Shown in pieces: positions 40,481 through 48,249 of a stretch of 64,000 nucleotides of DNA (position 1 is its first letter; every line of letters begins with the position of its first letter). A model generated the notes under the pieces. The model ran no database searches, had not been told where the DNA came from, and saw nothing but the letters and a program-made list of their open reading frames with translations. Source of the stretch: Bacteroidetes bacterium MED-G20 (GTDB taxonomy: Bacteria; Bacteroidota; Bacteroidia; Flavobacteriales_D; Parvicellaceae); NCBI GenBank assembly GCA_905182745.1, contig CAJJCR010000015.1, positions 1-64,000 on the forward strand, given 5' to 3'. The translations under genes and the position numbers were made by a program.

Positions 40481-42563
40481 AGAATCCTTAATTAGACTTT
40501 ATTCAGTTTATTTTCTTGTCCTTTTCATGGGGCTTGGGAATAGTTGTTCAAATATTTTATCTGCAAATATTTAAAGGTGAACAGTTAAAATCTGATGCTA
40601 ATAAGCAAATTTTTATTTCTAAGAAGGTTTTAGCTCCAAGAGGAAATATTTACGCTTCTAATGAGCAAAAGACATCCCTTGCCCTGTCTGTTCCAAGATA
40701 TAAGGTGTTCGTTGACTTGGTGACTATCCGTGAGCAAGATTTTATTGAAAACATTTCCGACCTGTCAGATTCCTTAAGTGTTCTTTTAGCTAGAAAAACA
40801 TCTAATGAATGGAAGACCGATTTAGAAAACCAAAGGCTTGATAGTAACCGATACTTTTTTATTGCAAGAGGTTTAAGAAATGATCAAATAGAGCGGCTAA
40901 GAAAGTTCCCCATCTTTAATCTAGGTAAATATAGTGGGGGGTGTATTATTTTAAAATCTAACCAAAGAGTAAAGCCCTACGGTATGCTTGCTAATAGAAC
41001 GGTGGGTTATGCTGTAGAAAATGATGGAAAAAAATCAATTTTAGTTGGTATTGAAGGTGCATTCAATGAGTACTTGAAAGGTCAGAACGGTCAGATGCTG
41101 ATGGAGAAAATTAGGGGAAATGAATGGAAGCCAGTGGATGACGAACTATCTATTGAACCTATCCCAGGAAGTGATGTTTATACTTCCATTGATGTAAATA
41201 TTCAGGATGTTGCAGAATCTGCATTATTAAAACAACTAAGAGAACAAAAGGCTCAGAAAGGATGTGCGGTTTTGATGGAGGTTAAAACAGGGTTTGTTAA
41301 GGCTATCGCTAACCTTTCATTTGACCCTAAGACTGAAACTTATTTTGAAGCTCAAAACCATGCAGTAGGCTTAGCTTCTGAGCCAGGTTCAACATTTAAA
41401 CTTGCTTCACTTTTAGTTGCTTTAGAACAGGGCAAGGTCGAAATAACCGATTCTGTAGACATGACAGGCAGGTATGAATTCTACGATAATTACCTTACTG
41501 ACGGAGGGAAAATTTATGGAAGAAATACGATCCAAGATGCATTTGAAAAATCATCTAATGTTATAAGTCAAATAATTTATGATAATTATAAAAAAGAACC
41601 TCAGGAATTTATTGATGGATTAAAAGAAATTGGAATTCATCAAAAACTTGGTTTGTCAATACTAGGGGAAGGAGTGCCGCTAATAAAAGAATCTTCAGAT
41701 CCAACTTTTACTGGAATTACTCTTCCTTGGATGTCTATTGGTTATGAACTTAAAATGACTCCTCTTCAGACATTGGCTTTGTATAATGCAGTAGCAAATG
41801 AAGGAACCTTACTTCAACCACAGTTTGTTAAATGTATTAAGAAAGGGAGTGAGATACAGAAAGAATATAAGCCGAGAATTTTAAACGCATCTATTTGTTC
41901 TAAATCTACACTTAGGGATTTAAAGTTGATGCTTGAAGGAGTTGTTGAAAGAGGTACTGCAAAAAACATAAAAGCTAGGGGATTTTCAATTGCAGGAAAA
42001 ACAGGCACCTCAAAAATTGCCCAAGGCTCTAAAGGATATGGAAATAAATACCAAGCTTCTTTTTGTGGGTATTTTCCATCTAAAGATCCGGTTTATAGTT
42101 GTATTGTGGTTGTTCAAGGCCCAACTAAAAATATTTTTGGCTCTGTAGTTTCTGGAACTGTCTTTAAGGAGATTGCAGATAAGGTGTATGCACAAGAATT
42201 TCAAAAAGAAAACATTGTTTTAAAAGATACTCTTAACCGATATCCTTATTCAAGAAGTGGCGACAAGAAGTCTTTTTTAGTTGCTTCTGAAAATATGAGA
42301 ATACCTGTTGAAGATTTAACTAATAAATCTAACATTGGATATCTACAAGGACTGGAAAAGATGCCATTAAAATAATTCATAAAAAGACGCAAAAAGGATT
42401 GGTTCCGAATGTAGTTGGTATGGGATTGATAGATGCTACCTATATGTTGGAAAAGTTTGGATTGTTTGTGCAGCCTGTTGGATCTGGAATAGTAAGAGAA
42501 CAATCTATTAAAGCTGGTTTAAGAATCAATAAAGGTCAAAAAATCATTTTACAATTAGGATGA
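40470..42563 (+). CDS. ftsI: Septal transpeptidase PBP3/FtsI with PASTA domain (frameshifted)
   Basis: FtsI crosslinks peptidoglycan at the septum. The cytoplasmic start and membrane anchor (RLYSVYFLVLFMGLG) precede the dimerisation domain and the transpeptidase domain with active-site SEPGSTFK, SSN and KTGTS motifs. A C-terminal PASTA domain follows (LVPNVVGMGLIDATYMLEKFGL). Two breaks occur. At about 40535 a GGG run reads as GG, joining the anchor to GIVVQIFYLQIF. At about 42369-42373 one A is missing before IIHKKTQKGLVPN. The full length is about 698 residues. It shares ATGA with murE. Confidence 0.94.
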
Positions 42564-44024
42564 AATTACTAAAGGATATTATATATGGAATTAGAATAAT
42601 TGAGATAAAAGGCAATACTAATATTGCTGTAGAAAATATAGCATTTGACTCAAGAGAAATTAACAATCTTTCTTTGTTTATAGCTGTAAAAGGAGTCTCT
42701 CAAGATGGTCATAATTTTATTTCTCAAGCTCAAAATAGTGGTGCATGCGCTATAATTTGTGAGAGTCTTCCTGAAATTTTAAATGACGATATTACTTATA
42801 TCAAAGTTTTGGATAGTTCAAAGTCTTTAGGAATTATAGCTTCAAATTTTTTCGACAATCCCTCTGAAAAATTAAAACTAGTTGGAATAACAGGCACCAA
42901 CGGTAAGACTACTTGTGCAACATTACTATATGACTTGTATAGGTTGATGGGGTATAAAACTGGTCTTATTTCAACTGTAAATATTAAAATTCTTCACAAA
43001 ACAATTCCTTCTACTCATACAACTCCAAACGCAATTAGAATCAACGAATTACTGAGTCAAATGGTTAAAGAAGGTTGTTCCCATGTCTTTATGGAGGTAA
43101 GTTCCCATGCCTTAGACCAAAATAGAGTCTCTGGGTTGTCTTTTGATATCGGTGTTTATACCAATATTTCAAGAGACCACATGGATTATCATCCTACTAT
43201 AAATGACTATATAGGTGCAAAGAAAAAGTTATTTAAATCTCTTAAAAATGATGCTGTAGCAATTGTAAACCTTGACGACCCTTATGGAGAAGAAATGGTT
43301 GGAGATATAATCGCCAAGCCACTTTCTTATGGATCTCAAAGGAGATTTTGATTTTAAAGGGAAAATTGTTGAAAATAATATAAGCGGACTTTCTGTAGAA
43401 ATTGACGGATTTGAAATGACCTCTAGATTGATAGGAGAATTCAATGCTTACAATCTTTTGGTTGTTTTTGCAGTAGCTAAATCTCTTGGTGAAGAAGCTC
43501 TTACTGTTCTGACAATTATAAGTAATCTAAAAGCACCAGATGGAAGATTTGAGTACATAGTTTCTTCCACAAATATTACAGCAGTAATTGACTATGCTCA
43601 TACTCCAGATGCTCTTGAAAATGTTTTGAAGACATTGGTTAGTCTAAAAAGCGATAAAGAAAAGATATTCACTGTATTTGGTTGTGGGGGAGACAGAGAT
43701 AAGGGCAAGCGTCCATTAATGGGTGAAATTTCATCAGTTTATAGCGATAGGGTGATAGTAACTTCTGATAATCCTAGAAGCGAAAAGCCAAGTGAAATTA
43801 TTAAGGAAATTATTTCTGGAATTCCAAAGTCTAAATCCTCAAAAGTATTAACAGTACAAGAAAGAAAACAAGCAATTAAAGTTGCTTGTGAATTAGCAGA
43901 AAGTGGAGATGTGATTTTAATTGCCGGTAAAGGCCATGAAAAGTATCAAATCATTGGAGATGAGAAATTACATTTTGATGATTTAGAAACTACTATAGAA
44001 ATTTTCAAACAAATACAACAATAA
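42560..44024 (+). CDS. murE: UDP-MurNAc-tripeptide ligase (frameshifted)
   Basis: MurE adds the third amino acid to the peptidoglycan stem. The ATP-binding [28 protein letters not shown] and [10 protein letters not shown] motifs lie in the first part. The C-terminal domain has [29 protein letters not shown] and the DNPR motif associated with meso-diaminopimelate. The frame changes near 43340: removing one A from an AAA run joins YGSQ to [10 protein letters not shown]. Full length is about 488 residues. It overlaps ftsI and mraY. Confidence 0.94.
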
Positions 44025-45265
44025 TGCTTTATCATTTTTTTAATTATATAAATCAAAATTTTGACTTTCCTGGTTCAGGATTGTTCCAATTTATCTCTTT
44101 TAGAGCCGGGATGGCTGTAATTACTTCACTTGTTATCACACTTGTTTTTGGAGGAAGGCTAATTAAATTCTTACAGAGAAAACAAGTTGGGGAGTCTATT
44201 AGAGATTTGGGTTTAGAAGGTCAAATGGTGAAGGCAGGAACACCTACAATGGGTGGAGTTATCATTTTAGCTGGTATCATAGTACCAACCATACTTTTCG
44301 CCAAGTTAGATAACATTTATATTCAATTAATGCTTGTTGCAACTGTCTGGTTAGGATTGATTGGTTTTCTAGACGATTACATTAAAGTATTTAAAAAAAA
44401 TAAAAAAGGATTAGCTGGAAAGTTTAAAGTAATTGGACAAATTGGAGTTGGAATAATTGTAGGAGCTTCTATGTATTGGAGCGATTCTGTGACAATTAAA
44501 TCCAAAACTTATTACAACACAGAAATTCTAGCCGAGCAGCAAGAGAGTTCGCAAGAAACTAAAAGTTATTTCTGGGAAGAGACAAAATCACTTAAAACTA
44601 CAATTCCATTTGTTAAAAATAATGAGTTTGATTATTCGTGGCTAATTAGCTGGATAAGCCCTGAGTTGTCCAAATATTCGTGGCTAGTATTTATCCCTAT
44701 TATCGTAATTATTGTTATTTCAGTATCCAATGGCGCTAATTTAACTGATGGACTTGATGGTCTTGCAACTGGAACTAGTGCAATTATTGGTATAACATTA
44801 GCCATCTTTGCTTACCTCTCAGGTAATTTAGTTTTTTCTGATTATTTAAATATTCTCTATATCCCAAATTCATCTGAGCTTGTGATTTTTATTAGCTCAT
44901 TTGTAGGAGCCTGCATCGGGTTTTTGTGGTACAATTCATTTCCTGCAAAAGTTTTCATGGGCGATACAGGAAGTTTGGCTTTGGGTGGTATAATTGCCGT
45001 TTTCGCTATAGCCATTAGGAAGGAATTATTAATTCCAGTTTTCTGCGGAGTTTTTCTTATAGAAAATTTAAGTGTTGTTCTCCAAGTTTCTTATTTCAAA
45101 TACACCAAAAGAAAATTTGGAGAGGGTAGAAGAATCTTTTTAATGTCTCCAATTCACCATCATTACCAAAAGAAAGGAATTCACGAGGCAAAAATAGTCT
45201 CAAGGTTTTGGATTCTTGGTATTCTACTGGCAGTTCTTTCCATTGTAACTCTAAAACTTAGATGA
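44024..45265 (+). CDS. mraY: Phospho-MurNAc-pentapeptide transferase
   Basis: MraY transfers phospho-MurNAc-pentapeptide to undecaprenyl phosphate, making lipid I in the inner membrane. About ten hydrophobic segments are seen. Conserved stretches are [55 protein letters not shown] and [11 protein letters not shown]. It carries the extended loop between residues 150 and 215 usual in Bacteroidota MraY. The start shares one base with the murE stop and the end overlaps murD. Confidence 0.97.
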
Positions 45266-46614
45266 TAAAAAACTTTCAAAATATTGTGGTTTTAGGTGCT
45301 GGAAAAAGTGGTATTGGCGCAGCGGTACTAGCTAAGAAAAATAATTTAAATGTTCTGCTCTGTGACGATGCAAATATATCCAAGGAATCTACCAATACTT
45401 TAAGAGAATTTGGAGTTGAATATTACCAAGTGGATTATATGCCATTTATTTCCTCTGTTCAAGATGTTTTGGTTGTTAGCCCTGGAATCGATAATGACCA
45501 TCAATTAGTAAAATATTTTATAAAAAGTTCCAAACCCATTATAAGTGAAATTGAATTTGCAAGCTATTTCTGCAATGCAAAAAAAATATGTATTACTGGA
45601 ACTAATGGAAAGACCACTACCACTTTAATGGTTACTTACCTTTTAGAGAATGCAGGATACAATGTAAAAGCGGTTGGGAATATTGGTCAAAGTTATGCCA
45701 TGTCAGTAGCTTTAGAAAATGTGGACTACTATGTTATTGAACTCAGTAGTTTTCAATTAGATAGAATGTACGATTTCAAATCTGACATTTCAATAATTCT
45801 AAATATTTCCCCAGATCATTTGGATAGATATCAACAAGATTTCACAAAATATTCGAAAAGTAAATTTAGGATTTGTCAAAACATGTCCAAAAGTGATTGT
45901 CTAATTTATAACCACGACGATAAAGTAATATCAGAATGGATTATGTCTCAAGACGAAGTCTCTTACGAATTAGCTCCAGTTTCCATAAATGAGAAATTAC
46001 TCAAAGGATCTTGGTTAGAAAAAGAACAAATAAAAATCAGTATAAACAATAAAAAACAAACAATTATGTCCATTCATCAATTGGCCCAACAAGGCAAGCA
46101 CAATTTATTTAATTCTATGGCTGCGGGAGTTGCAGCAAGAGTATTAGATATTAGAAAAGAAATTATCCGAGACAGTCTAGCGGATTTTCAAAATGTAGAA
46201 CATAGATTGGAGGATGTTGCCAAAATCCATGGAATTAATTTTATAAATGATTCAAAGGCGACAAATGTCAATTCAACATGGTATGCTTTAGAAAGCATGC
46301 AGCAACCAACTATTTGGATTGTTGGAGGAATAGATAAAGGAAATGATTACTCCATATTAGAGGGACTTGTAAAACAAAAGGTTTTAGGAATTGTTTGCTT
46401 AGGAAAAGATAATTCTAAGATTAAAGAGGCTTTTGGTTCCATAGTGGATTCTTTTTATGAAGCTGAATCAGCGGATCAAGCAGTACAAATTAGTTATAGA
46501 ATTGCTAAAAAAGGATTTAATGTTTTGCTTTCTCCTGCTTGTTCTAGTTTCGATTTATTTAAGAGTTATGAAGATAGAGGTCATCAATTTAAAAATGCAG
46601 TAAGAACATTATAA
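45262..46614 (+). CDS. murD: UDP-MurNAc-L-alanine:D-glutamate ligase
   Basis: MurD adds D-glutamate to UDP-MurNAc-L-Ala. The N-terminal UDP-binding domain ([18 protein letters not shown]) is followed by the ATP-binding [22 protein letters not shown] and ISPDHLDRY, and the C-terminal domain with [33 protein letters not shown] and [19 protein letters not shown]. At 450 residues the ligase is complete. It is followed after 9 bp by a smaller gene resembling its own C-terminal domain. Confidence 0.97.
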
Positions 46615-46623
46615 TTTTTGTAG

Positions 46624-47122
46624 ATGAATATACTAAAGCAGAAATCTATAAGAAAACAGCTCCTTAATAAAAGAAAAGAATCTTTGAATTCTTTCTCTTC
46701 TATCAGAGCACACACTTGAATTTTTTTCAGAAAAGCTAGATAAAATATGGATTAATGATTCCAAATCAACAGATAGTGGAGCTACAGCATATTCTTTGTC
46801 AAATATAGATGGACCAATTATTTGGATAGTTGGTCAAAACCAATCTCCAAGAGATTTGGACATTCTCGAGGATTTAGTTTTGTCAAAAGTAACGGAGATA
46901 ATCTATTATGGAAAACATGAAACCAATATAAAATATCTATTTGGCTCTAAAATTAAGTATTCTCAATTGTCAACCATTAAGGAGTCGGTGAATATGGCTT
47001 TAAATAATCCTACTAAAAATACAAGTATTCTTTTCTCTCCCGCTTGCTCAAGTTATATTACTCATGAAAACTACCAGTTAAGAGGAGATTATTTTAAAAA
47101 TTTAATTGATAGTTTAGATTAA
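46624..47122 (+). CDS. Stand-alone MurD C-terminal-domain paralogue (frameshifted)
   Basis: A protein of about 165 residues that matches only the linker and C-terminal domain of MurD. Parallels in order are IWINDSKSTDSGAT with [30 protein letters not shown] with [17 protein letters not shown], and ILFSPACSSYITHENYQLRGDYF with [22 protein letters not shown]. The central ATP-binding domain is absent, so it cannot act as a ligase alone. The frame changes once near 46705-46715 (one extra base in GCACACAC). The two copies are clearly diverged, so this is not a misassembly repeat. It shares a base with ftsW. Either a relic of a tandem duplication or a regulatory subunit. Confidence 0.75.
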
Positions 47123-48249
47123 TGCAACAGCTAATTGAGAAATACCTAAAGGGTGATAAAGTAATTTGGACAATCATAATATTGCTTTCATTGTACTCAA
47201 TAGTTATGGCTTACAGCTCAAGTTCTAATTTAGCATTTAGAATTTCAGGTGGAAATGTTGCTCCTTATGTTATTAAGCACACTTTAATTATAATAATTGG
47301 AATTATTCTGATTATTTATTTACAGTTTTTTCCATACAAGTATTTTTCACGATTATCCCAAATAGGAATTTTTGTTTCTATTGTTTTATTGTTTGTTACA
47401 CTTTTATTTGGAGTCAGTAAAGGAAATGCTTCAAGATGGATAATGGGTTTTCAACCTTCAGACTTTGCGAAGCTAGTTCTTATAATCTATGTCTCACGTA
47501 TGCTTACCAATAAGAAGGATGAGATTAAGGATTTTAAAAAAGGTTTAATACCTATTTTATGGCCTGTAGCTCTAATTTGTGGCTTAATTCTCCCAGCTGA
47601 TTTTTCTACTGCAGCGATGTTATTTACCGTTTGTTTTACAATGATGTTTATAGGAGGTGCTAAAATAAAGCATTTAGGATCTATTATAGGAACTGCTTTT
47701 CTAGGTTTTGCTTTTTTAATTCTTGTCAATATCGCAGTTCCTGGTTTTTTACCTAGGGTGGATACCTGGGAAAAAAGAATGATGAGCTTTGGAAGTGGTG
47801 AGAAACAAGAAAATTACCAAGCTGAAATGGCAAAACGAGCGGTCGCAAATGGATTTTTATTTGGAAAAGGTCCGGGGAAAGGACATGTTAAAAATGATTT
47901 GTATTCTGCTCAATCAGATTTTATTTATGCTTCTTCTATTGAAGAATTTGGCTCTATAATTGGAGGAATAGGATTGGTTATTTTATATATGATTTTATTT
48001 TTCAGAGCGATTAGAATTATGAATAAAGTGGATAGTAAATTTGCTTCTTTTATTGTATTTGGATTAAGTTTTATGCTAATCTTCCAATCTTTTATAAATA
48101 TGGGGGTTGGGGTAAATTTATTTCCTGTTACCGGTCAACCTTTGCCTTTAATTAGTATGGGTGGAACTTCTATATTATTTACCTGTATTTCTTTGGGAAT
48201 AATTTTAAATGTTAGTACAACAGTATATAAAGATTCTGAAAATGTCTAG
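47122..48249 (+). CDS. ftsW: Septal peptidoglycan polymerase FtsW
   Basis: FtsW is the SEDS-family glycosyltransferase that polymerises septal peptidoglycan from lipid II, working with FtsI. The 375-residue protein has about ten hydrophobic segments. SEDS marks include the SSSNLAF stretch near the first helix, RWIMGFQPSDFAKL, QSDFIYASSIEEFGSIIGG and NMGVGVNLFPVTGQPLPLISMGGTS. Its start shares a base with the MurD-like gene and its end overlaps murG by 8 bp. Confidence 0.95.
   Translation: MQQLIEKYLKGDKVIWTIIILLSLYSIVMAYSSSSNLAFRISGGNVAPYVIKHTLIIIIGIILIIYLQFFPYKYFSRLSQIGIFVSIVLLFVTLLFGVSKGNASRWIMGFQPSDFAKLVLIIYVSRMLTNKKDEIKDFKKGLIPILWPVALICGLILPADFSTAAMLFTVCFTMMFIGGAKIKHLGSIIGTAFLGFAFLILVNIAVPGFLPRVDTWEKRMMSFGSGEKQENYQAEMAKRAVANGFLFGKGPGKGHVKNDLYSAQSDFIYASSIEEFGSIIGGIGLVILYMILFFRAIRIMNKVDSKFASFIVFGLSFMLIFQSFINMGVGVNLFPVTGQPLPLISMGGTSILFTCISLGIILNVSTTVYKDSENV

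Follow-up and report, generated by a model that had tools for sequence, protein, structure and literature searches.

In the window, a stretch of 64,000 nucleotides of Bacteroidetes bacterium MED-G20, a complete murD gene of 450 amino acids (45262..46614, plus strand), in which the residue comparison found all catalytic residues of the C-terminal domain (CTD), is directly followed by a segment that encodes only the linker and the CTD of MurD (46624..47122, plus strand). For this stand-alone MurD-CTD paralogue the label ctd is used here. Its orthologous extent runs from an ATG at 46624 to a stop codon at 47120-47122, where the sequence TAATG (47120..47124, plus strand) joins the end of ctd to the start of ftsW (47122..48249, plus strand), the gene adjoining ctd in nearly all loci. 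The motifs DSKST, SPACSSY and RGDYF are all present in the segment, and a UDP- or ATP-binding domain was not found in it. In these points the results agree with an earlier note on this DNA that was made from the sequence alone. The note had also described the segment as being in frame and in tight spacing with ftsW; the spacing is indeed tight, with an overlap of one base, but the two genes lie in different frames. Within the genome, the closest paralogue of the window's ctd is the CTD of the MurD next to it; the identity of 37% (E = 7e-22) is far beyond chance. No further ctd copies were found in the source assembly (1.25 Mb, 69% complete).

The earlier note was right about the segment and wrong in taking it for a single open frame, as it had overlooked one extra base (..TCTTCTATcAGAGCAC..; no strand assigned) at about 46704, which is absent from all four aligned relatives. 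The conserved block is not read in the frame of the ATG at 46624: that frame meets a TGA at 46717, while the conserved CTD reading frame (46688..47122, plus strand; 144 codons) has no ATG upstream of the conserved block, and the longest listed open reading frame is 46796-47122 with a TTG start and 108 amino acids. In the alignment, same-genus relatives have an ATG at the equivalent of position 46624, followed by a gene of 165 codons, which identifies 46624 as the orthologous start. Mismatches at 46713-46714, 9-10 bp downstream of the extra base, change the otherwise invariant codon of Arg302. Over 10.4 kb of the window, three frame-breaking single-base indels were detected against four of four relatives, located in ftsI (~42334), murE (~43334) and ctd (~46704). 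By the extra base at ~43334, absent from the four compared relatives, murE (42560-44024) is split into two open reading frames, and the one-base deletion at ~42334 changes the end of ftsI. Both murE and ftsI are normally essential, and their indels are likely assembly errors. Since these two genes carry, within the same 10 kb, indels not shared by four relatives, since both are normally essential, since the Arg302 codon is hit nearby and since the remainder of the copy evolves no differently from its relatives (dN/dS 0.21 to the nearest), the frameshift in ctd of the window is most likely an assembly or sequencing error.

All ten other genomes of the genus carry ctd (10/10); the named relatives are metagenome-assembled genomes of marine Flavobacteriales/Crocinitomicaceae. 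The checked copies are intact and comprise about 161-165 codons, with the ATG ~9 bp after murD and the end touching ftsW. As the relatives carry the same short gene, the possibility that full ligase domains had been lost by an assembly error is refuted, and absence or random decay of the gene in close relatives, which the earlier note had named as evidence against its reading, did not occur. Read-through from murD into ctd was rejected, because the gap is 8 bp or 9 bp within the genus and the frame varies with the gap. A split MurD, with ctd supplying a missing domain, was likewise rejected, because the examined MurDs keep all C-terminal residues (93/93).

For the wider distribution, a profile of 20 members (A1) was run against three sets of genomes (order, 356; class, 296; phylum, 247), and the regions were then inspected. 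Family codes are labels of the search tool, f1 being the home family. A ctd homologue in the slot between murD and ftsW or beside ftsW was found in 28 family-level groups sampled in the class Bacteroidia, eight of them within the order (f1, f2, f3, f4, f7, part of f8, f10, f11) and twenty in the rest of the class (f16, f17, f21, f22, f24, f25, f32, f36, f39, f41, f42, f43, f48, f52, f53, f54, f55, f57, f65, f83). The gene order in 60 fetched regions is mraY-murD-ctd-ftsW-murG-murC-ftsQ-ftsA. The median spacing is 16 bp on the murD side of ctd and 3 bp on the ftsW side, and in 64 of 75 loci ctd lies no more than 30 bp from ftsW. Two tandem copies occur in f2, f3, f4 and f7. Large families of the class are without ctd; murD almost abuts ftsW in f9, f13, f6, f64, f51, f47, f27 and many genera of f8, and most of the gaps sampled there are shorter than 40 bp. 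In the sampled genomes of the phylum's other classes no ctd was found, the profile matching only murD itself. Two matches in two phylum genomes outside the class were pieces of broken or contig-cut murD, and genome G588 (f61) was set aside as fragments too.

Among 94 ctd copies examined, the frames are mostly intact. One copy (L064, genome G029) is split in two by an internal TAA and is either a sequencing error or a decaying copy, and two murD-ftsW gaps of 486 bp (L097, genome G082, f8) and 226 bp (L089, genome G042, f5) contain no recognisable ctd and are possibly eroded copies. Additional ctd-like genes are located outside the division cluster in f16 (L133, L134), f57 (L136) and f53 (L139), and the copies L133 and L136 both adjoin an aldehyde dehydrogenase gene. 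In genus g8 of the home family (L053, L060, L065, L070), one or two genes are inserted between murD and ctd; their products are membrane lipoprotein-like and have the common motif VVHxGxxQKRKYxKG. In f83 (L147; G632:C12:29769-30218), the cluster reads mraY-ctd-ftsW-murG without murD, and another contig has an open frame of 885 aa that includes a MurD-type CTD and may encode a fused ligase. With the rearrangement in f53 (L138), these make three separate cases in which the cluster is broken and ctd stands beside ftsW and not beside murD.

Within the genus, the median dN/dS of ctd is 0.20 (37 unsaturated pairs). The corresponding values are 0.19 in ftsQ, 0.054 in ftsW and 0.048 in the final 150 codons of murD; an odd value for murC, probably due to mixed open reading frames, was left out. 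The gene is under constraint, but this is some four times weaker than in the MurD domain from which it originates. The comparison of synonymous and non-synonymous changes proposed in the earlier note thereby revealed purifying selection, and together with the occurrence in all ten congeners and in 28 family-level groups it bears out the note's view that the gene has been kept for a long time. Frame decay or neutral evolution as expected of a pseudogene was not found in the close relatives. Hence, of the tandem-duplication relic that had been considered, the origin from a MurD duplication stands and the present state as a relic does not: ctd is a real and old gene.

A tree was built from 29 ctds and the C-terminal parts of 32 MurDs; a single branch (88/87; present in 88% of bootstrap trees) divides all ctds from all MurDs. 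Because this one branch separates ctd from MurD, a single origin of ctd is likely, with the exception of f54. In a quick tree, the ctd of f54 groups with the MurD of that family (99) and, because of this clustering, probably goes back to an independent and later duplication, at least one such event having probably taken place. The f54 copy (L151) follows murD, keeps the sequence GGLDKGNDW and is not followed by ftsW. In the home family, the ctds branch in the same order as their MurDs, as expected under vertical descent.

In profile searches, the Pfam domain PF02875 matches 18 of 20 ctd family members (best 2.5e-11), and no match at 1e-3 was obtained for the copy of the window. The MurD model TIGR01087 matches all 20 members, each far below its curated cut-off of 211.95 bits (104.8 bits for member 1 and 163.1 bits for L141). 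The N-terminal (UDP-binding) and central (ATP-binding, with the GKT/S P-loop) domains of a MurD ligase are lacking, as ctd covers only the MurD residues after ~290 in the window and in the relatives. An AlphaFold2 model of ctd reached a pLDDT of 74 and a pTM of 0.73, from an input alignment of 12 rows that included MurD rows and thus favours a MurD-like result. This model matches the MurD CTD, with Z 16.6-19.6 against MurD chains over ~135 residues (MurD residues ~299-438) and Z about 11-13 against other Mur ligases. The predicted fold is the Rossmann-like CTD fold of MurD plus the preceding helix. This N-terminal helix of ~20 residues was modelled with low confidence and is the counterpart of the one that precedes the hinge in MurD.

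The swing of the C-terminal domain of MurD has Arg302 as its handle (PMC4816537), and D-Glu-type inhibitors are bound at their acidic groups by hydrogen bonds from Thr321, Lys348, Ser415 and Phe422 (PMC3527612). All residues compared, including Lys348 and Asp346, are kept in 93 of 93 MurDs. In the ctds of the home family, Arg302, Asn316-Asp317-Ser318 and Thr321 are invariant (32/32 each) and Lys319 (31/32), Ser415 (30/32) and an aromatic residue at 422 (31/32) nearly so, while Lys348 is found in 0 of 32 copies and Asp346 in 9/32, and 29/32 have Asp in place of Asn322. Outside the home family, Lys348 occurs in 4 of 47 ctds. Therefore, the D-Glu residue set of a MurD ligase (Thr321, Lys348, Ser415, Phe/Tyr422) is incomplete in nearly all ctds, which lack Lys348. 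The lysine of the GGxDKG motif is kept in few families (f39, f54, f24, f41), and because these retain it, Lys348 was probably lost repeatedly. Judged from the alignments, ctd keeps most of the cleft face but not the D-Glu lysine. As this lysine was lost although the cleft-facing residues were kept, plain D-Glu binding, one of the functions suggested in the earlier note, appears less likely than a docking or structural role.

Taken at the level of the sequences, ctd is probably a helper or regulator of cell wall synthesis and not an enzyme. We tentatively favour the reading that it encodes a non-catalytic pseudo-domain derived from the MurD CTD, which would act in trans by docking on MurD or on a neighbouring wall-synthesis protein. 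In an ancestor shared by much of the class Bacteroidia, the 3' end of murD may have been duplicated in tandem long ago, and the operon would since have retained the copy between murD and ftsW. The product has the helix that precedes the hinge, the arginine of the hinge itself and the domain whose swing in MurD brings it onto the ATP/UDP-MurNAc-Ala site. With its kept cleft-facing residues it might dock in trans on a Mur ligase, for which MurD with its own CTD swung out would be the most likely partner. Because the D-glutamate step could not be completed without Lys348, ctd would serve as a regulatory or stabilising pseudo-domain, possibly keeping MurD near FtsW and MurG.

A docking role has to be weighed against a scaffold or adaptor, the main rival, in which the N-terminal helix and the surface of ctd would tether MurD and MurG to FtsW at the division site and the cleft would be a remnant. 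We regard this as possible but rather doubtful. It draws on diverged forms in 11 f8 genomes, in which the slot is filled by an open reading frame of 142-159 amino acids. These forms kept the position, the size and the N-terminal helix (qLxxaRxxxL), lost the active-site motifs and have conserved motifs of their own (ahGKxxGMDxFsW, FPxPVxW); profile comparison gave 99.2% to the ctd core and 96.8% to MurD, and Pfam and NCBIfam contain no family for them. Because the f8 forms lost these motifs, docking by the cleft cannot account for the full function in every family. The second copies in f2, f3 and f7 have in common the N-terminal motif TIHKxKKS, the strict pattern being present in 10 of 11 such copies and one residue off in the eleventh. 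The f8 motifs and TIHKxKKS point to protein contacts rather than to catalysis, and because ctd stays with ftsW when the cluster breaks, a partner other than MurD would be favoured. On the other hand, a pure scaffold would not need the near-invariant cleft residues of the home family, and the N-terminal helix is mostly inherited from MurD, so that its conservation alone does not prove a new interface.

That ctd is a sensor whose ligand would be a nucleotide, D-glutamate or a UDP-MurNAc peptide and which signals the precursor level to a partner is improbable. The conservation of Asp317, Lys319, Thr321, Ser415 and the aromatic residue 422 in the home family would fit such a role, but nearly all members are without Lys348 and the GGxDKG loop, the binding sites of MurD are built jointly with the two domains missing in ctd, and the f8 forms have lost even the remaining ligand residues. 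Still less credit can be given to a decaying duplicate without function, retained by chance or only as a spacer for the translation of ftsW. Faster evolution than in the C-terminal part of MurD, the marked divergence within f8, the many f8 genera without the gene, the internal stop in L064 and the frameshift in the window could be read in its favour; a dN/dS well below 1, the split from MurD on one branch across many families, the near-invariant residues, the tandem copies with a new motif and the mostly intact frames argue against it, and the conservation of the gene already contradicts it. A cis-acting role of the coding stretch as DNA or RNA, such as translational coupling into ftsW, would suit the overlap or close contact with this gene but is very hard to reconcile with the selection on the amino acid sequence and with families in which murD lies directly against ftsW without ctd.

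If ctd is taken as a dedicated, non-catalytic pseudo-domain, much of the class Bacteroidia might use it to control or couple the making of precursors in the cytoplasm and the synthesis of the septal wall, with the TIHKxKKS second copies and the f8 forms as specialised versions; we consider this conceivable rather than probable. Few bacterial gene clusters have been studied as much as the division and cell-wall cluster, and its core genes are considered known. A conserved, uncurated gene in the middle of this cluster in many families, kept by purifying selection, points to a component of peptidoglycan synthesis or of division that is unstudied in Bacteroidia. As a natural MurD fragment with Lys348 mostly lost and the hinge arginine kept, ctd could also be a tool for studying the domain swing of MurD, which is a problem in drug design. 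Pfam and NCBIfam hold no dedicated model for ctd. A literature search for a CTD paralogue in Flavobacteriales, a gene between murD and ftsW, a murD duplication or a Mur pseudoenzyme yielded no description of ctd, most subscription journals lying outside the search.

Among known systems, ctd is most similar to MurD itself (TIGR01087; PF02875 Mur_ligase_C), to which it is homologous over the last helix, the hinge and the CTD, with the HR, NDSKAT, SPAC and RG motifs and the closest predicted fold in common. It differs from MurD by the missing N-terminal and central domains, its length of 160-190 amino acids, scores below the TIGR01087 cut-off and the loss of Lys348 and GGxDKG in most members. The CTDs of MurC, MurE, MurF, Mpl, the pseudomurein ligases and cyanophycin synthetase have the same fold, but their match to ctd in sequence and structure is far weaker and the domain is part of a full ligase. 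In regulatory pseudoenzymes, a catalytic residue is gone, fold and interface residues are retained, and the gene adjoins an active paralogue. Whereas these comprise a whole enzyme, ctd is a single domain, and its likeness to them lies in residues, fold and gene position; within these terms, we read ctd as a pseudoenzyme-like paralogue that was reduced to one domain and became fixed inside the division cluster.
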